Shown here: piece by piece, positions 2,095-13,892 of the stretch
Numbering within the stretch: position 1 is the stretch's first letter
How the letters are laid out: each line of letters opens with the position of its first letter
Assembly: GCA_949297075.1 (NCBI GenBank)
Contig: CASFRX010000051.1
Coordinates: forward strand, 1 to 64,000
Source: an uncultured Oscillospiraceae bacterium
GTDB taxonomy: Bacteria; Bacillota; Clostridia; Oscillospirales; Acutalibacteraceae
Direction of reading: 5' to 3'
Length of the DNA stretch: 64,000 nt
The notes under the pieces: model-generated
Databases searched by the model: none
Told to the model about the DNA's origin: nothing
What the model saw: the letters and a program-made list of their open reading frames with translations, nothing else
Made by a program: the position numbers and the translations under genes

Positions 2095-2345
2095 AAGGCT
2101 TTTCACGGGTAATTATGAACAAATTGTTAATATTTTGCGTTTTTACTGATTTTGTCAACCTATTTGGGCGAAAAATGCGGCTGTAAGCCCTATGAGTGAG
2201 AGGAGTTTTTACAAGTTAAGCAATGCTGAGGCATTTCTATCCGCAAAATGCCGTAAAATCGGTTTGCTTTAAAACTCAATGTGTAACTTCCGCCGCACAT
2301 GAGTTATTCAAATGCTCCTCCTAAATTCAAAAGGAAGGTGATAAA

Positions 2346-2837
2346 ATCGCTAAACGAACACTTGGAAAAAGAGAAAAGCTCTTTTGCCTCAACTATGCGC
2401 TGCTGCGAAACGGACGGGATGCCGCCGCACGCTCAGGCTACGGAATAAACCCTGCCGCAAGCGCTGCAAAGCTGCTGAGCCGCCGTGAAATTTTAGATGA
2501 AATTGCCACAATTACCGCCGCACAGCAGCCAAAACAAACCGAAGCCGCAATGGGCTATAAACGGCTTGCCTTTGGTTCTGCCGCCGATGCTCTCAAGCTG
2601 ATTTTCAGAGAAGAGCCGCCCACGGATGAAGAAATTGAACAGATGGATTTATTCAACATTTCGGAAATCAAGAAGCCAAAAGGAGGCGGTCTTGAAATCA
2701 AATTCTTTGACCGCTTGAAGCCTCTTGAAAGACTAAGCGAAATGACTGCCAACGAGGGAGAAAACTCTGCTCTCCCCTTTTACGAGGCGCTTAACAACGG
2801 CGCCAAAGCTTTGTTAGGGAGAGGAGCAGATGAGTAA
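2346..2837 (+). CDS. Phage terminase small subunit
   Basis: Small terminase subunits recognise the packaging site on phage DNA and hand it to the large subunit. The N-terminal part (KRTLGKREKLFCLNYALLRN, then GRDAAARSGYGINPAASAAKLL) is the family's helix-turn-helix arrangement; the C-terminal part is acidic. The frame contains no ATG, GTG or TTG before 2550, and starting at 2550 would delete the whole DNA-binding domain. After the in-frame stop at 2322-2324 the candidates are ATC at 2346, six bases after AAGGAAGGTG, or ATT at 2325; ATC has the better ribosome binding site and gives 163 residues. Overlaps terL by eight bases (ATGAGTAA). Confidence 0.8.
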   Translation: MAKRTLGKREKLFCLNYALLRNGRDAAARSGYGINPAASAAKLLSRREILDEIATITAAQQPKQTEAAMGYKRLAFGSAADALKLIFREEPPTDEEIEQMDLFNISEIKKPKGGGLEIKFFDRLKPLERLSEMTANEGENSALPFYEALNNGAKALLGRGADE

Positions 2838-4110
2838 AGCTCAAAAGTCTTACAGCAAATTTAAGCCGTTTTCGCCCAAACAGCTCACCGCACTGACCTG
2901 GTGGTGTCCTGATTCACCGTATGCAGACCGTGACGCTATTATATGCGACGGTGCGGTGCGAAGCGGCAAGACGCTGTGTATGTCCATCTCATTTATCTTC
3001 TGGGCTTTTTCCGCTTTTGAGGACAGTTCGTTTGCAATTTGCGGCAAAACCGTTTCCTCTCTGCGGCGAAATGTTATAACCTCACTGCTGCCCACTCTGA
3101 CACAGCTCGGCTTTGACTGCAAAGAAAAAGTGAGCAAGAACCAAATTGACATAAGCTACAACGGCCGCCAAAACAGCTTCTGGCTTTTCGGAGGCAAGGA
3201 TGAATCCTCCGCATCCTTAATTCAAGGCATGACCTTAGGCGGCGTGCTTCTGGACGAAGTTGCGCTTATGCCCCGTTCCTTTGTTGAGCAGGCTCTTGCC
3301 CGTTGCTCGCTGGACGGCTCAAAATTTTGGTTCAACTGCAACCCTGACAATCCTCTGCACTGGTTTCACGAGGAATGGATAAAAAAAAGCGAAGAAAAAA
3401 ACTGCCTTTATCTCCATTTTTTGATGAAAGACAATCCGTCGCTTACAAAACAGATTATAAAGCGGTATTCCGCACTTTACAGCGGCGCCTTTTACGAGCG
3501 TTTTGTTGAGGGCAAGTGGGTTGCGACGCAGGGTTTGGTTTATCCCTTCTTTTCGGCGGCGAGCCATGTCTGCCCGGTGCCTAAAGGCGAATTTGAACGC
3601 TACTGCATATCCTGCGACTACGGCACGGTCAACCCCTCTTCCTTCGGCCTTTGGGGCAGGAGAGACGAAATTTGGTATCGGTTAGATGAATACTACCACG
3701 ATTCGAGAAAGCTCGGCGTTCAAAAAACCGACGAGGAGCATTATGCCGCACTTGAAGAGCTTGCAGGCGACCTAAACATAAGCGAAATCACGGTTGATCC
3801 CTCTGCGGCAAGCTTTATCGAATGCATCCGCCGCCACGGCAGGTTCAAGGTTGTGCCTGCCAGAAATGATGTGCTTGATGGAATAAGACGGGTTTCCGAA
3901 GCCCTTAAGGCAGGCACGCTCAAAATTTGCAGCCCTTGCGTGAACACCATAAGAGAGTTTTCTCTCTACCGCTGGGAAGATAACTGCGCCAAGGATACGC
4001 CACGCAAGGTAAACGACCACGCTATGGACGACCTGCGATATTTTGTGACCACCTTGATGAGCCAAGGCGACTGCGGATTTTTCGCCATAGCACAGGAAAG
4101 GAATGACTGA
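2830..4110 (+). CDS. terL: Phage terminase large subunit (PBSX-type)
   Basis: The packaging motor that drives DNA into the prohead and cuts it. 426 residues, normal for the PBSX/Terminase_3-6 type. The ATPase half has Walker A GAVRSGKT (residues 41-48) and Walker B GVLLDE (138-143). The nuclease half has Asp263 in CISCDYGT, Asp323 in the TVDPSAASF motif and the acidic pair Asp400-Asp401 in HAMDDLRYF, so the catalytic residues of both activities look intact. ATG lies inside the terS stop overlap and the gene ends in a four-base overlap with the portal gene, indicating translational coupling. No frameshift or premature stop. Confidence 0.93.
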   Translation: MSKAQKSYSKFKPFSPKQLTALTWWCPDSPYADRDAIICDGAVRSGKTLCMSISFIFWAFSAFEDSSFAICGKTVSSLRRNVITSLLPTLTQLGFDCKEKVSKNQIDISYNGRQNSFWLFGGKDESSASLIQGMTLGGVLLDEVALMPRSFVEQALARCSLDGSKFWFNCNPDNPLHWFHEEWIKKSEEKNCLYLHFLMKDNPSLTKQIIKRYSALYSGAFYERFVEGKWVATQGLVYPFFSAASHVCPVPKGEFERYCISCDYGTVNPSSFGLWGRRDEIWYRLDEYYHDSRKLGVQKTDEEHYAALEELAGDLNISEITVDPSAASFIECIRRHGRFKVVPARNDVLDGIRRVSEALKAGTLKICSPCVNTIREFSLYRWEDNCAKDTPRKVNDHAMDDLRYFVTTLMSQGDCGFFAIAQERND

Positions 4111-5237
4111 AAATTAAAAAAAGCAAGAAAACTCATCCACAGGCTGAGGTTTGTGCCATACAGACCTCAGGCACGCAAAATCCTTTCAGCGTTTTGGAAA
4201 GCTGCAGGGATTTGGGATATCAAAACCTGAGGCTTTATTCAGCACTCAGGCAGAGCGTACCGATTATTGATGCGGCAATTATGAAAATCATCCGCCTGAC
4301 AGGCGGCTTTGAGGTTATCTGCACTGAGCGCTCAGCTCAGGAAAAGCTGGATAACTTTCTAAAAAATGTCTGTGTAAACGGAACCGGTCAGAGCCTGCAA
4401 AGCTTTGTTGCAAGCTATTTTGAACAGCTTTTGACCTACGGCACGGCTATCGGCGAAATAGTAACGGATTCCTTGGGTCAGCCATATGCATTTTTCAACG
4501 CTCCGCTTGAAAATGTTGAGCTTCGCCGCAACGAAAACGGCATTGATATTGATATTTATTCAAAGAATCTCGGCAGAGCCGAAAAGGTAAAATATCCCGA
4601 ACTGATAATAATGTCCATGCTCAACCCCGATGCAGGTGCGCTCTGCGGCAATTCTCTTCTAAAAGGCTTGCCCTTTGTGGCGGAAACGCTGATGAAAATT
4701 TTCCGCACAACAGGAAGCAACTGGGAGCGCCTTGGCAACACACGCTTTGCCGTTACATACAAGCCCTCTAACGACACCCTTGACAGAGCCTACGCAAAAG
4801 AGCGTGCAATTCAGGTTGCAAAGGAATGGAGCAACGCAATGAGCAGCGAAAAAGCAACGGATTTTGTTGCAGTGGGCGATATTCAGATTAAGGTTATCGG
4901 CGCCGAGGCGCAGATACCCGACAGCGAAATCCCCGTGCGCCAGCTTCTTGAACAGATTGTTGCAAAGACAGGCTTGCCGCCGTTTCTGTTGGGCTTGAGC
5001 TGGTCGAGCACCGAGCGAATGAGTTCACAGCAGGCAGACGCTCTCACAAGCGAGCTTGAAGCCTACCGCCGAATACTCACCCCTGCAATCACCAAGCTTT
5101 GCGACACTTGCCTGCGCCTTTTGGGTCTGCCCGGCAGTGTAAACATAGTTTGGTACGACATAACCTTACAGGATATGGTTGAAATCGCCCGTGCAGAGCT
5201 TTACGGCGCACAGGCAGAAAAACTGATTAACAACTGA
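4107..5237 (+). CDS. Phage portal protein
   Basis: Portal proteins form the dodecameric ring at one vertex of the head through which DNA passes. Recognised by length (376 residues), by position directly after terL, and by the C-terminal portal segment LPPFLLGLSWSSTERMSSQQ with the following helix ELEAYRRILTPAITKL. An in-frame stop at 4104-4106 leaves CTG at 4107 as the first candidate; it overlaps the terL stop as CTGA and has AGGAAAGGA just upstream. TTG at 4194 is an alternative that would drop 29 lysine-rich residues and has no ribosome binding site. Followed 22 bases later by the protease gene. Confidence 0.85.
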   Translation: MKIKKSKKTHPQAEVCAIQTSGTQNPFSVLESCRDLGYQNLRLYSALRQSVPIIDAAIMKIIRLTGGFEVICTERSAQEKLDNFLKNVCVNGTGQSLQSFVASYFEQLLTYGTAIGEIVTDSLGQPYAFFNAPLENVELRRNENGIDIDIYSKNLGRAEKVKYPELIIMSMLNPDAGALCGNSLLKGLPFVAETLMKIFRTTGSNWERLGNTRFAVTYKPSNDTLDRAYAKERAIQVAKEWSNAMSSEKATDFVAVGDIQIKVIGAEAQIPDSEIPVRQLLEQIVAKTGLPPFLLGLSWSSTERMSSQQADALTSELEAYRRILTPAITKLCDTCLRLLGLPGSVNIVWYDITLQDMVEIARAELYGAQAEKLINN

Positions 5238-5259
5238 CCGAAAACCGAAAGGAGAAAAA

Positions 5260-6234
5260 TTGAACAAGCTTTACAAAAACACCGCAAGCGACATTTTTGA
5301 AGCAGATGTGCCGCAGGAGGAGCTTGAACTAATCAACAAGCACACCCTTGTGCCCCTTACTGCTGACAAGGTTTTTTGCTTCACCGTTACCCTTTGCGAT
5401 AACGAAATAGACAGAGACATCGAACGTTTCAGCCCCGATGCGCTCAAAGCAATGGCACCAATGTTTGTAGGCAAAACAGGCATTGCCGACCACCAAATGC
5501 GAGCAGAAAACCAGAGCTGCCGAATTTACAAAACATGGGTTGAAGAAAGCACAAGCCGAAAAAATTCCCTCGGAGAAGCTTACACAGAGCTTAAAGCGAG
5601 GGTATATATGCCCAAGACACCCGGCTGCGAAGAGCTCATGGCAAAAATCAAGGCAGGCATCATTAAGGAAACAAGCGTAGGCTGTTCCATGGGCCGATAT
5701 ACTTGCTCCGTTTGCGGAGCTGACCTGAAAAAATCCACCTGCAAGCACCGCAAAGGTGAACTCTATTCAGGCAAGCTTTGCCACACTGTTTTGGAAGAGC
5801 CAAAGGACGCTTATGAATTCAGCTTCGTTGCCGTGCCCGCACAGCCTAATGCAGGCGTAACAAAGGCATTTGAGGCGGCTGACACCATGCAGCCCGAAGA
5901 AATTCTCAGCAAGGCGGCAGGCTGTGACAGCGTAACGCTGAGCATTAAGGCTTTCACTCAGCTCACGCAAAAAATTAACAGCTTAGAAGAACTTGCCCAA
6001 GATGCAAAATGCTACCGCACCGCACTTGAAAAACAAGTTATGCGCCTTGGCGCAATGGCTGTACCCTCTCTTGCAACGGGAGATTTTGAAAGCATTTGCA
6101 AATCCCTTACAAGTGCACAGCTTATGTCACTTCAGAGAGCCTTTGAAGAAAAGGCGGCTAAGCTCTATCCCCTGCATCCACAGCTCAGTCCTCACACGGA
6201 AAAAGAAACAAACAACAGCGAATTTAAAATTTAA
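5260..6234 (+). CDS. Prohead protease with an embedded zinc-knuckle-like segment
   Basis: HK97-type (U35-like) serine proteases clip scaffold and capsid during head maturation. The expected residues are present: His78 in GIADHQM, Ser139 in IKETSVGCS, and Glu186 in AYEFSFVAVPAQPNAG. Between Ser139 and Glu186 is an insert with Cys149-x2-Cys152 and Cys161-x-His163, which looks like a metal-binding knuckle. Residues beyond about 215 form a helical tail that could act as scaffold. TTG start at 5260 preceded by AAAGGAG. 324 residues, longer than a bare protease, as expected for a protease-scaffold fusion. Confidence 0.82.
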   Translation: MNKLYKNTASDIFEADVPQEELELINKHTLVPLTADKVFCFTVTLCDNEIDRDIERFSPDALKAMAPMFVGKTGIADHQMRAENQSCRIYKTWVEESTSRKNSLGEAYTELKARVYMPKTPGCEELMAKIKAGIIKETSVGCSMGRYTCSVCGADLKKSTCKHRKGELYSGKLCHTVLEEPKDAYEFSFVAVPAQPNAGVTKAFEAADTMQPEEILSKAAGCDSVTLSIKAFTQLTQKINSLEELAQDAKCYRTALEKQVMRLGAMAVPSLATGDFESICKSLTSAQLMSLQRAFEEKAAKLYPLHPQLSPHTEKETNNSEFKI

Positions 6235-6248
6235 AGGAGAAAAAACAT

Positions 6249-6593
6249 ATGTCAATTTCATTTACAGGCATTAACGAACAGGTAATCACATTCAAAACCG
6301 AAACCCAGCTTGAAGCCGGCACACTCGTAAAAATCAGCGCAAACGGCACAGTTTCCGCCTGCGCCGCAAACGACAAGATTGCAGGCGTCGTACTCTTCTG
6401 CCGAGATAAGCTTGCGGCTGTACAGGTGAGCGGTTTTGCGGCTGTGCCCTACACAGGCACGGCACCCACTCTCGGCTACGCAAAGCTTTGTGCGGCAAGC
6501 AAAACGGAAATTAAAGCTGACAGCACCAACGGCCGTGAGCTCATGGTGCTTGAAACTGATACAACCGAAAAAATTGCAGGCTTTATGCTTTAA
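6249..6593 (+). CDS. Putative head decoration/stabilisation protein
   Basis: A 114-residue, beta-rich protein (ITFKTETQLEAGTLVKISANG, then KIAGVVLFCRDKLAAVQVSG) resembling DUF2190-type small capsid proteins that bind the outside of HK97-fold shells. The assignment rests on composition, size and its place between protease and major capsid, where decoration proteins are usually encoded. ATG preceded by AAAGGAG; 14 bases after the protease gene and 24 before the capsid gene. Confidence 0.65.
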   Translation: MSISFTGINEQVITFKTETQLEAGTLVKISANGTVSACAANDKIAGVVLFCRDKLAAVQVSGFAAVPYTGTAPTLGYAKLCAASKTEIKADSTNGRELMVLETDTTEKIAGFML

Positions 6594-6594
6594 T

Positions 6595-6611
6595 AAAAGG
6601 AAGGAGTAAAT
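6595..6611 (+). promoter_or_regulatory. Extended ribosome binding site of the capsid gene
   Basis: AAAAGGAAGGAGTAAAT ends seven bases before the major capsid ATG. It contains an extended Shine-Dalgarno and is a perfect 17-base complement of 1849-1865 in the candidate small RNA upstream of the cassette. Confidence 0.6.
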
Positions 6612-6617
6612 ATTACT

Positions 6618-7619
6618 ATGGCTAATTTTGATAATATCAGACTTGAAAAAGGACTCTACTGCGGCGGCTCATTCACAGGAGCGCTTGAATCAATCGACCC
6701 CTCCGAAAACTATAAAGGCAGTGCTCTTGAGGGACTGGACGCCTATCAGCGTCAGCTTAAGCGTTTTGACATCAAGGTAAGCGGTGCAGGCAGCGATGTT
6801 GTTGAAAAATTCTTCAAGACAAGCGACAGCGCAACCCTTTTCCCCGAATATGTGGCAAGAGCTGTCCGTCAGGGCATGGAGGAGGCCAATGTTCTCCCCA
6901 AACTCGTAGCCTCTGTTACAAACATTGATTCTCTTGACTATCGCTCAATTATGAGCGTACCCACAGACGACGATAAGGCTCTTAAAGAGGTTGCAGAAGG
7001 TGCCGCAATTCCTCAAACAGTTGTTAAAACCCGTGAAAACCTTGTAAGGCTGCGCAAAAGAGGTAGGATGCTTGTCGCTTCATATGAGGCTATCCGCTTC
7101 CAGCGCCTTGACCTTTTCACGGTTACACTTCGCCAGATTGGTGCATACATTGCAAAGGCACAGCTTGCGGATGCCATTGATGTTATCCTCAACGGCGACG
7201 GCAACGACAACGCCGCCGCAGAGACTGCAGCAGCCGGTGCTTCACTCACCTATGCAGACCTTGTTAACCTTTGGAAAGACCTTGATCCCTATGAGATGAA
7301 TGTGCTTATTGCCAACAATGCCGATGCGGTAAATATGCTCAACTTCAGCGAATTCAAGGACTCCGCAGCAGGTCTCAACTTCCACGCTACCGGCAAAATG
7401 ATTACTCCCATCGGCGCAGAGCTTATTCGCTCCTCTTCCCTTGAAAGCGGCAAGATTATCGGCCTTGATAAAAACTGCGCTCTCGAAATGGTTAAGGCAG
7501 GAGATGTGCTAACAGAATACGACAAGCTCATTGACCGCCAGCTTGAAAGAGCCGCTATCACATCTATTGCAGGCTTTGCGAAGATTTTCACCGACGCTTC
7601 AAGAATTCTCAACGCCTGA
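6618..7619 (+). CDS. Major capsid protein (HK97 fold)
   Basis: The shell protein of the head. 333 residues. Recognised from the family pattern: an N-terminal arm, then LFPEYVARAVRQGMEEANVLP, the strand SLDYRSIMSV, the long segment EGAAIPQTVVKTRENLVRLR, the spine-helix region FTVTLRQIGAYIAKAQLADA, and a C-terminal beta-strand after VLTEYDKLIDRQLERAAI. Position after protease and decoration protein agrees. ATG with the strongest ribosome binding site of the cluster (AAGGAAGGAG), consistent with a highly made structural protein. No disruption. Confidence 0.88.
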   Translation: MANFDNIRLEKGLYCGGSFTGALESIDPSENYKGSALEGLDAYQRQLKRFDIKVSGAGSDVVEKFFKTSDSATLFPEYVARAVRQGMEEANVLPKLVASVTNIDSLDYRSIMSVPTDDDKALKEVAEGAAIPQTVVKTRENLVRLRKRGRMLVASYEAIRFQRLDLFTVTLRQIGAYIAKAQLADAIDVILNGDGNDNAAAETAAAGASLTYADLVNLWKDLDPYEMNVLIANNADAVNMLNFSEFKDSAAGLNFHATGKMITPIGAELIRSSSLESGKIIGLDKNCALEMVKAGDVLTEYDKLIDRQLERAAITSIAGFAKIFTDASRILNA

Positions 7620-7638
7620 GAGAAAGAGAGGGTAAGCC

Positions 7639-8007
7639 TTGCTGACAACTAAAACAGTTTTAAACAGGTTAAGGCAGCTTGTAACCCTCGACGAGCAAGG
7701 GGCAGAAAACGCTCTGCCCCTTTGCGGTCTCTGCCTTGAAGAAATTAAAGGCAGGCTCAGAGAGGGCGCAGATGAAAACGACCCCCGTTTAGCTCAGGCC
7801 GCCGCAGGCCTCGCATACTACCGCATTGCCTTGCGCAACGCCGCCGACGGCGAAGGCGCAACAAGCTTCAAAGCAGGCGATGTTACTGTTACACGCTCCC
7901 CTGCAGCCGCACTCCAGCTTGCCGTTGCGGTGCGTGACGAAGCTATTGCCGATGCCGCTGACCTTTTAACGGACCGTGACTTTATCTTTAGGCAGGTGAG
8001 CCCATGA
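7639..8007 (+). CDS. Putative head-tail connector (gp6-like adaptor)
   Basis: 122 residues, mostly alpha-helical, in the position of the adaptor ring that stacks on the portal. The pattern LRQLVTLDEQGAENALPL, CLEEIKGRLREGADENDPRL, AAAGLAYYRIALR is like the gp6/Gp15 connector family, with a C-terminal helix AVAVRDEAIADAADLL. TTG start at 7639 with AGAGAGGG upstream. Ends in an ATGA overlap with the next gene. Confidence 0.6.
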   Translation: MLTTKTVLNRLRQLVTLDEQGAENALPLCGLCLEEIKGRLREGADENDPRLAQAAAGLAYYRIALRNAADGEGATSFKAGDVTVTRSPAAALQLAVAVRDEAIADAADLLTDRDFIFRQVSP

Positions 8008-8339
8008 ATTTAAAGTCCATGCTCTATTCCTATGGCAGGCAGGTTGAGCTTTGTAATTCCGAGGGTGTAAAGGAAAAATTCAAAGCTTTGATTCAGCCTC
8101 TTCGCTACAAGAACAAAATGTATCTTGACGGCATTTATACCGAAATCGGCTTTAACAGCCAGGGACATTACCTCTATATCGGACCGCCTGAAATTGATTT
8201 GACTGCTGCGGCAGACGACGAAATTCTGTCTGCCGACGGAATAAGCTACCAAATTGACAGAGCTGAAAAAGTATATAAAGGCGAAAAAGTATTCTACATA
8301 TGGGCAATTATCAGGACTATTGTTCAGGAGGTATATTAA
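8004..8339 (+). CDS. Putative head-closure/joining protein
   Basis: 111 residues, beta-rich, beginning NLKSMLYSYGRQVELCN. Size, fold type and gene order match the small head-closure (head-tail joining) proteins that plug the neck after packaging. ATG overlaps the previous stop (ATGA). No catalytic motif is expected. I recognise it mainly by context. Confidence 0.55.
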   Translation: MNLKSMLYSYGRQVELCNSEGVKEKFKALIQPLRYKNKMYLDGIYTEIGFNSQGHYLYIGPPEIDLTAAADDEILSADGISYQIDRAEKVYKGEKVFYIWAIIRTIVQEVY

Positions 8340-8340
8340 G

Positions 8341-9183
8341 ATGTCAGATTCAATAAGCGCAATGCCGCTGGACATTGCAAACTGGTTAAACGAACAGACG
8401 GAGGTTTTTCAAGACATACTTTTTGTTACGGAATTTCCTCCCGTGCCCAAGGCAACCCCCTTGCACAGAACTATTGTTTCCGTTGGTTTGGAAAGTGTAA
8501 AAATCAGCGATTATTTCATCGAAAACAGCGAGGGCGTGCTCGTACCCGATGAATACTGCCGCCTTGCGGAAATCAAGCTTCGTTTTTCCATATATGTTCC
8601 CTACTCCCTCGGCGGCACTGCCTGCCATGAAGCATTCACCAGGGTAGTTGACTGCCTGAACTTTAAAAGCGATTTAAATCTCATAAACTCAACCTGTCAG
8701 CCCATAAGCGCAGACAGGGAAACAGACGCCTTTGTTATGAAGAGCTTTGTTGATATTGAGGCGCAGTTCTGCCCCGCCGAATCAAGCGATATTCAGTATG
8801 AATCCTTTTTGCCAAAAACATTTTTTTGCAGTTCCCACATGAAGGATGATTCACTGCACCTAAATCCCGGTGAAAGAGAAAAATGGAACTCCTCGGTTGT
8901 TGTGGGGACTTACTTCGGCACTGACGAAAGTTCCGTTACGATAAATTTGGGGTTCAAGCCGAAGCTGGTCATAGTCTCCCCAATCAATCTGCCCCTATTT
9001 TATTCAAAAGGCGCTGTATCATATTGCCTTTCAGGCATAGCTACGCCGCACTGCCCCGGCGCAGGCGTTCAAATAACCGACAACGGATTTAGGCTTATAC
9101 AGGGTTCTTCGCAACACAACGGTGACACATATGTTTATCTCAACAAACTCGGTTATGATTACAACTACATCGCCGTAAAATAA
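8341..9183 (+). CDS. Neck/tail-terminator-like protein fused to a tail-fibre-like tip domain
   Basis: 280 residues in two parts. Residues 1 to about 170 sit where phages encode the tail-terminator or completion protein and have that length and mixed alpha/beta look (helix SLGGTACHEAFTRVVDCLNF, strand AFVMKSFVDIEAQFC). Residues about 195-280 read YFGTDESSVTINLGFKPKLV, later ITDNGFRLIQG and ending LGYDYNYIAVK, the pattern seen in tips of phage tail fibres and related surface-binding proteins. ATG at 8341 follows AGGAGG; an upstream in-frame ATG at 8254 lies inside the previous gene and lacks a ribosome binding site. Last gene of the cassette: no tail tube, tape measure, lysis or integrase gene follows. 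Confidence 0.6.
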   Translation: MSDSISAMPLDIANWLNEQTEVFQDILFVTEFPPVPKATPLHRTIVSVGLESVKISDYFIENSEGVLVPDEYCRLAEIKLRFSIYVPYSLGGTACHEAFTRVVDCLNFKSDLNLINSTCQPISADRETDAFVMKSFVDIEAQFCPAESSDIQYESFLPKTFFCSSHMKDDSLHLNPGEREKWNSSVVVGTYFGTDESSVTINLGFKPKLVIVSPINLPLFYSKGAVSYCLSGIATPHCPGAGVQITDNGFRLIQGSSQHNGDTYVYLNKLGYDYNYIAVK

Positions 9184-13282: not shown

Positions 13283-13624
13283 TTACTTGTCACCCCTAAG
13301 GCTATTTTTTACAGCCCCTTTAATCAACCAAGCATAATCTTGTCTGCAATCAAGAACATAATCAATAAACACATCATTATCCTTGATTTGATATAATACC
13401 AAATACCAATTTTCAACATACATTTTGTGATACTTATTTGGGGTTATACATTCTTCATTAAAAAAAGGAAATCTGTTTGGCATTTCTTCAAGTGAATTAA
13501 ATGCATCAATCAACCTTGCTTTAGTATTTTTTGCAGCATTTTTGTTTACAGTTGCAATAAAAGCAATATGTTCCTTTAGCATATCTGCCGCTCTTTGTGA
13601 AACAATAACATTATACTTTTGCAT
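13283..13624 (-). CDS. RelE/ParE-type toxin
   Basis: 113 residues with the RelE/ParE fold pattern: KYNVIVSQRAADMLKEHIAFI at the N-terminus, a helix with ARLIDAFNSLEEMPNRFPFF, the strand NKYHKMYVENWYLVLYQI and VFIDYVLDCRQDY. Toxins of this family cut mRNA on the ribosome or poison gyrase. ATG at 13624 lies one base after the antitoxin stop with GAGGTG upstream; a longer in-frame extension to 13657 lies inside the antitoxin gene. Second gene of a two-gene operon. Confidence 0.85.
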   Translation of the reverse strand: MQKYNVIVSQRAADMLKEHIAFIATVNKNAAKNTKARLIDAFNSLEEMPNRFPFFNEECITPNKYHKMYVENWYLVLYQIKDNDVFIDYVLDCRQDYAWLIKGAVKNSLRGDK

Positions 13625-13625
13625 A

Positions 13626-13892
13626 TCACACCTCATCGATGATTCTGTCAAGTTCATCGCTTAATTGTGATACAGATACACCTTTAATTCCTGCCATTCT
13701 ATCCTCCTCAACGGATAAAAGCTGTTCTCTGAGTTCAAGCATTTTTTCTCTTCTTGAAAACGCTTCAATATCCATAACAACTAAGTCGCCCTCGCCGTTT
13801 TTGGTTAGATATACAGGCTCGCCTGTTTTTTTACATAATGTTGAAATTTCGTTATAGTTTTGTCTTATAGCAGCACTTGGTCTTATATTCAT
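13626..13892 (-). CDS. Phd/YefM-type antitoxin
   Basis: 88 residues. The N-terminal Phd/YefM DNA-binding domain reads IRPSAAIRQNYNEISTLCKK, EPVYLTKNGEGDLVVMDIEA; the C-terminal half is the acidic helix that neutralises the toxin (QLSDELDRIIDEV). Encoded directly before the toxin with a one-base gap, the standard order for autoregulated type II pairs. ATG preceded by AAGGAGATG. Confidence 0.88.
   Translation of the reverse strand: MNIRPSAAIRQNYNEISTLCKKTGEPVYLTKNGEGDLVVMDIEAFSRREKMLELREQLLSVEEDRMAGIKGVSVSQLSDELDRIIDEV

Follow-up and report, generated by a model that had tools for sequence, protein, structure and literature searches.

A tail-reduced head and packaging cassette, vertically inherited and probably gene transfer agent-like, in an uncultured Oscillospiraceae bacterium and its relatives

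Known systems and the window cassette

Gene transfer agents (GTAs) are recognized by caudoviricete-derived proteins, packaging of mostly random host DNA and endogenization in the host genome, and further by an own genome that is not fully packageable, vertical co-diversification with the host and delivery to other cells (PMC9662315). Here we analyse a 64,000-nucleotide stretch (the window) from an uncultured Oscillospiraceae bacterium (assembly GCA_949297075.1, contig CASFRX010000051.1), in which nine collinear plus-strand genes, separated by short gaps or overlapping, form a 6.8 kb head and packaging cassette at positions 2346–9183. We consider it probable that this cassette is a vertically inherited, tail-reduced GTA-like element, that is, an ancient head and packaging operon owned by its host. 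It is called GTA-like because three of the six features are found and the other three need experiments. The three are caudoviricete-derived proteins (profile matches of the large terminase TerL, portal, protease and major capsid protein, MCP; folds of the terminator and MCP), endogenization (host-gene flanks, no integrase or replication genes, a conserved single copy) and vertical inheritance (congruence of MCP and ParE trees).

Faecalibacterium belongs to the same bacterial order as the window organism. Its agent, FpGTA, forms ~40 nm particles in which a tail is not visible and which hold ~9 kb of DNA; short fragments of uniform size, with no gene cluster assigned, are packaged by R. callidus and others in the order (PMC12946183, Nat Commun 2026). 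Elements of this general kind thus occur in the order. Like the window cassette, FpGTA has a head and packaging operon (~10 kb, with the small terminase TerS, TerL, portal and MCP, in all examined genomes of its genus) and no replication genes, and its particles lack a visible tail, as would those of the window cassette. Compared by description only, FpGTA differs in having a scaffold gene and a second operon for baseplate, fibre and lysis, and the terminator–fibre fusion reported below is not in its description. RcGTA (Rhodogtaviriformidae) likewise comprises head and packaging genes of caudoviricete origin that are passed on vertically and kept by selection, with similar terminator and MCP folds, but it is alphaproteobacterial and has a siphovirus-like tail, whereas the window cassette has none and the tail parts of its relatives are of contractile type.

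Gene content of the cassette

Cassette genes were identified by profile searches against PHROGs and Pfam (Table 1). A first-pass annotation, made from the letters of the window, had proposed a nine-gene head and packaging block that retains the catalytic residues of terminase and protease and has no integrase, repressor, tail tube, tape measure, lysis or replication genes. Gene calls and profiles confirm the block, which is not a local prophage fragment; none of the listed gene classes was seen in the nine genes or their flanks, and the catalytic residues proved essentially invariant in more than 110 relatives.

Table 1. Features of the cassette and its leader in the window
Feature	Positions	Strand	Description and basis
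Conserved non-coding leader	2110..2345	+	~230 bp; ten-member genus alignment
TerS, 163 aa	2346..2837	+	ATC (isoleucine) start; weak phrog_2606 match
TerL	2830..4110	+	ATPase and RNase-H nuclease domains; phrog_2 E 5e-46, Terminase_6N
Portal	4194..5237	+	phrog_30703 E 1e-119
Head maturation protease	5260..6234	+	phrog_16951 E 2e-97; distant protease profiles phrog_80, phrog_18299
Decoration/stabilization-like protein	6249..6593	+	phrog_4588 virion structural protein, E 1e-24
MCP, HK97 fold	6618..7619	+	phrog_3922 E 1e-98, Pfam Phage_capsid_4
Connector, adaptor-like (gene 7)	7639..8007	+	role inferred from position
Connector, stopper-like (gene 8)	8004..8339	+	role inferred from position
Gene 9 fusion	8341..9183	+	terminator aa 1–147, linker 148–175, fibre/receptor-binding-like beta domain 186–280

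Specifically, TerL aligns over its length with PDB entry 5oe8 (entry name ‘Large subunit terminase’; 467 bits), the solved large terminase of phage D6E, and its Walker A (K47), Walker B (D142/E143) and nuclease (D263/D323/D396/D400) residues are unchanged in 111–112 aligned sequences. The protease has H78 and S139 with E186 nearby; H78 is kept in 115 of 117 relatives, the other two having gaps, and S139, E137, E186 and most Cys/His residues are kept in all 117. Protease residues 149–174 form a zinc-knuckle-like insertion (CxxC..CxH..C) that is essentially invariant in the same relatives. The true start of the portal may lie a few codons upstream, as the frames of relatives begin slightly earlier. 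Genes 7–9 gave no credible match in PHROGs or Pfam; the adaptor-like gene lies directly 3′ of MCP in 118 loci (ω 0.05–0.26) and the stopper-like gene is kept in 111 (ω 0.09–0.20).

An AlphaFold2 (AF2) model of MCP (pLDDT, predicted local distance difference test, 84) matches encapsulin 2e0z (VIA Z 16.6), the capsid 9gyi of EcCI2, a capsid-forming phage-inducible chromosomal island (cf-PICI; Z 16.2), and RcGTA 6tb9 (Z 15.1), a fold by which encapsulin, cf-PICI, HK97 and GTA capsids are not separable; the MCP sequence had no match in PDB, including no RcGTA chain. The high rank of encapsulins would suit a tail-less nanoparticle, filled with DNA or protein, whose role is not transfer but DNA disposal, competitor killing or decoy, or an encapsulin-like compartment; so would the absence of a tail for DNA injection and the precedent of PBSX, which packages DNA yet functions in killing (quoted in PMC12946183). 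A cargo shell, however, needs none of the portal, TerS, terminase with both active sites, protease and connectors that are kept here, in which the cassette differs from a shell-only encapsulin, and the fibre-like domain would imply cell contact. We regard a non-transfer nanoparticle as unlikely.

The same fold search, with the EcCI2 match, raises the question of satellites. The hallmark of cf-PICIs is head and packaging genes of their own and no tail, which the cassette shares, and such an element would build its own heads and borrow tails from a helper phage. But cf-PICIs are mobile and bear an integrase, whereas the window cassette looks immobile, and a satellite is a poor fit because integration and regulatory genes are lacking from cassette and flanks (no separate search for att sites was made) and inheritance is vertical, as a fixed single copy; the terminator–fibre fusion would presumably also keep a helper tail from docking. 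We therefore hold a cf-PICI-like origin to be very improbable.

Inheritance and selection

The cassette is inherited vertically and has co-diversified with its host. Each of the 11 genus genomes (the window genome and ten relatives) has one MCP copy with no internal stop, and TerL is intact in every member. Profile searches, on which all genome-wide statements here are based, found MCP likewise single and unbroken in 38 of the 59 family genomes sampled, from 28 of 49 genera, and in 3 of 38 genomes sampled from the rest of the order. Of 394 genomes drawn from the order, 71 were positive and clustered in a few families; among 391 drawn across the class, only three from beyond the order matched, each distantly (≤35% identity). 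For 29 genomes, the MCP and ParE trees have 11 splits in common, with a path-distance Mantel r of 0.89; with the window genus reduced to a single member (19 genera), r is 0.77, and none of 2000 permutations reaches the observed value.

The cassette is also under strong purifying selection. Pairwise Nei–Gojobori ratios of non-synonymous to synonymous change (dN/dS, ω) within the genus are 0.016–0.12 for MCP and 0.04–0.12 for TerL, rise to ~0.4 for the decoration protein, and across all nine genes (~0.02–0.4) are similar to those of flanking host genes (0.01–0.34). The first-pass annotation had named a ratio near 1 as evidence against a retained function; every gene lies far below it. These ratios largely refute an old prophage remnant that has lost its tail and all else and decays slowly with no particle function. 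Such a remnant would explain why tail genes are gone, why the cassette is missing in some family members and why a few copies are broken (a TerL stop in G028, a split TerL in G055). Against it also stand the intact copies in all genus members, the low ω of both halves of the gene 9 fusion with no sign of relaxed selection, the essentially invariant catalytic residues and the congruence with the host tree, and we judge it quite improbable. Among the broken copies, the stop in G028 is in frame, G055 has a split TerL and baseplate and G438 holds MCP fragments; these may reflect decay or assembly error.

The downstream order aldolase–divIVA–trmB–thiN is kept across the genus, and the upstream neighbour varies. 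Of the flanks given in the first-pass annotation, the aldolase/divIVA side is thus conserved and ylxM–ffh is not: the tail-less block occurs throughout the genus, but not at a shared ylxM–ffh site. We rejected ylxM–ffh as a conserved integration site, since the upstream side varies.

In the GTDB contig collection, relatives are encoded at 358 places, the best 80 of which include the isolate Ruminococcus bromii 5AMG, and IMG/VR holds 69 contigs, many of ~10 kb and several with the same gene order. Many ‘viral’ contigs of 4–15 kb in IMG/VR and GenBank (‘Bacteriophage sp.’; L031–L098, MT836604.1 and others) look host-chromosomal, and many such short database entries are probably host copies of the cassette.

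Tail reduction among relatives

Head genes and their order are shared among relatives, whose cassettes reach ~13 kb and differ in their tail parts. In R. bromii and many more of them, these parts comprise a DNA_circ_N–LysM hub, a gp44-like hub, Mu Gp45, a sheath-initiator-like protein, baseplate J and Mu Gp48, often with a fibre, but neither a sheath nor an ordinary tape measure; deeper members (e.g. L085, L266) have a sheath in addition, and further relatives have a neck only, or a neck and one hub. These parts recall Mu- and PBSX-type contractile phages, and the window TerL is close to that of phage D6E; in contrast to such phages, the cassettes of loci read gene by gene are free of genes for integrase, lysis, replication and an ordinary tape measure, and the window form is tail-less. 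Because relatives carry a larger cassette with a baseplate (and sheath), the window form is a deletion derivative, and a reduction series of sheath, baseplate, fusion and neck only can be laid out on the shared tree. In a quick tree of TerL, portal and MCP with long branches flagged, the fused compact form makes up one well-supported clade of 23 rows, with a few scattered rows besides. The tail deletion is old, and a whole clade has it as a fixed trait together with a fusion protein under selection. Since the closely read loci lack integrase, lysis and replication genes, the group's common ancestor had probably been endogenized already. The first-pass annotation had held that a complete prophage in relatives would make the window form a mere partial deletion; larger cassettes with a baseplate do exist, and none of those read closely is a complete prophage. 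In one other family of the order, three loci (L251, L268, L276) show another kind of reduction, with the head genes, a connector and a gp44-like hub, followed by host genes.

The missing tail might instead be encoded at another, divergent locus comparable to operon II of FpGTA, whose baseplate, fibre and lysis genes are ~125 kb away (PMC12946183), and in one relative (G043) MCP and baseplate sit on separate contigs. Yet none of the 11 genus genomes, that is, the window genome (G000) and ten sisters, gave a match to a baseplate-J profile, while the same search brought up strong homologues in 16 cassette-bearing family genomes; a hub profile was also negative in the 11, in a search with no positive control, and the fibre domain is already joined to the terminator. 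A split GTA is accordingly hardly to be expected. The earlier suggestion of a tail-less domesticated device under selection gains from ubiquity in the genus, vertical inheritance, the low dN/dS, retained catalytic sites and the absence of baseplate J; that the device packages DNA is suggested by its genes.

A terminator–fibre fusion

The last gene, first annotated as neck-like, is more than a neck protein: it encodes a tail terminator fused to the C-terminus of a tail fibre. Residues 1–147 align with terminators that relatives encode as proteins of their own, and AF2 with PDB matches for residues 1–150 recovered the phiCD508 neck (Z 11.4), lambda gpU (10.1) and RcGTA 6tba_4A (9.8). The fold search covered this terminator part; the identity of the C-terminal beta domain comes from its alignment with the final portion of the tail-fibre protein in relatives. 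Both halves are constrained (dN/dS 0.03–0.13 for the terminator, 0.10–0.16 for the fibre). The linker is disordered or flexible, and none of C144, P145, F156, C163, H166 and H173 varies among the 22 aligned fusions; the Cys/His residues among them (C144, C163, H166, H173) may bind metal.

Because these linker residues are invariant in every aligned fusion, the sequences argue for one fusion event without settling it: parsimony counts four changes for the fused state, on the quick tree with its long branches. The simplest account would be that a single deletion took out the tail and fused the two ends of it as gene 9, which was then kept under selection.

The small terminase, its start codon and the leader

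TerS is 60–75% identical within the genus, and no in-frame ATG, GTG or TTG occurs between the upstream in-frame stop and its conserved N-terminus. The start is ATC or ATA in all ten readable genus members (window, L100–L106, L108, L109), preceded at 7–9 nt by a strong Shine–Dalgarno sequence (GGTGA/GGAGGTGA). Such starts also occur in L121, L136, L142, L143, L177 and others, and recur elsewhere in the family. An automated scan that also counted ATT found them in 38 of 112 loci. The N-terminal part is under purifying selection (ω 0.08–0.22 in most pairs); one short segment in one close pair reaches 0.70. The AUC/AUA start may keep TerS translation low.

Upstream, the leader contains an inverted-repeat-like TGAACA..TTGTTAA, a GAGTGAGAGGAG block and the Shine–Dalgarno sequence AAGGAAGGTGA, and is a probable promoter and leader. 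It matched no Rfam family at gathering score and gave no significant RNA fold, and a promoter and terminator scan over the region was near chance level. Elsewhere in the window, a toxin–antitoxin-like pair (RelE/ParE-like protein and antitoxin, judged by eye) adjoins a tRNA-Arg at 13283–13892.

A proposed mechanism and what it would mean

Under the GTA-like reading, a leader promoter upstream of TerS would be on in a fraction of cells, and the AUC/AUA start seen in the sequence would hold the TerS dose low. MCP would assemble on the portal and the protease would mature the head, into which TerL and TerS would pump pieces of chromosomal DNA instead of a phage genome, a cargo expected because gene content and the intact terminase point to no replicating or excising genome. 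The two connectors (genes 7 and 8) would then seal the portal, and a gene 9 terminator ring would cap the neck directly and might display fibre-derived knobs for cell binding; particles would be released by host lysis genes encoded elsewhere and transfer DNA to other cells. By analogy with FpGTA and other members of the order, which package DNA, a DNA-carrying particle would be the likeliest product of the window cassette. The full combination of a tail-less gene-transfer lineage, a neck ring of fibre knobs, recipient-dependent DNA uptake and AUC/AUA-throttled production is offered only tentatively.

Several points weigh against a GTA-like element. Expression, particles, DNA content and transfer are predicted from the genes, and the route of DNA into a recipient cell is hard to explain without a tail. 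The window genus is represented by metagenome-assembled genomes only. The absences within the family and the few broken copies (G028, G055) have been mentioned, and some deep placements (G041, G094) differ between MCP and ParE trees, so that rare horizontal transfer is possible.

In the literature that was searched, no description of this element family was found, and the family-wide element, the terminator–fibre fusion and the conserved AUC/AUA start of TerS appear to be new, the latter two being its most unusual features. GTAs with identified genes outside the Alphaproteobacteria are few, and for gut Ruminococcaceae/Oscillospiraceae, where most source clusters are unidentified (PMC12946183), the cassette is a gene-level candidate for GTA-like packaging. 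Its family includes a cultured species, R. bromii, and the natural reduction series, which runs from a contractile tail to none, makes the function of a tail-less GTA directly testable.

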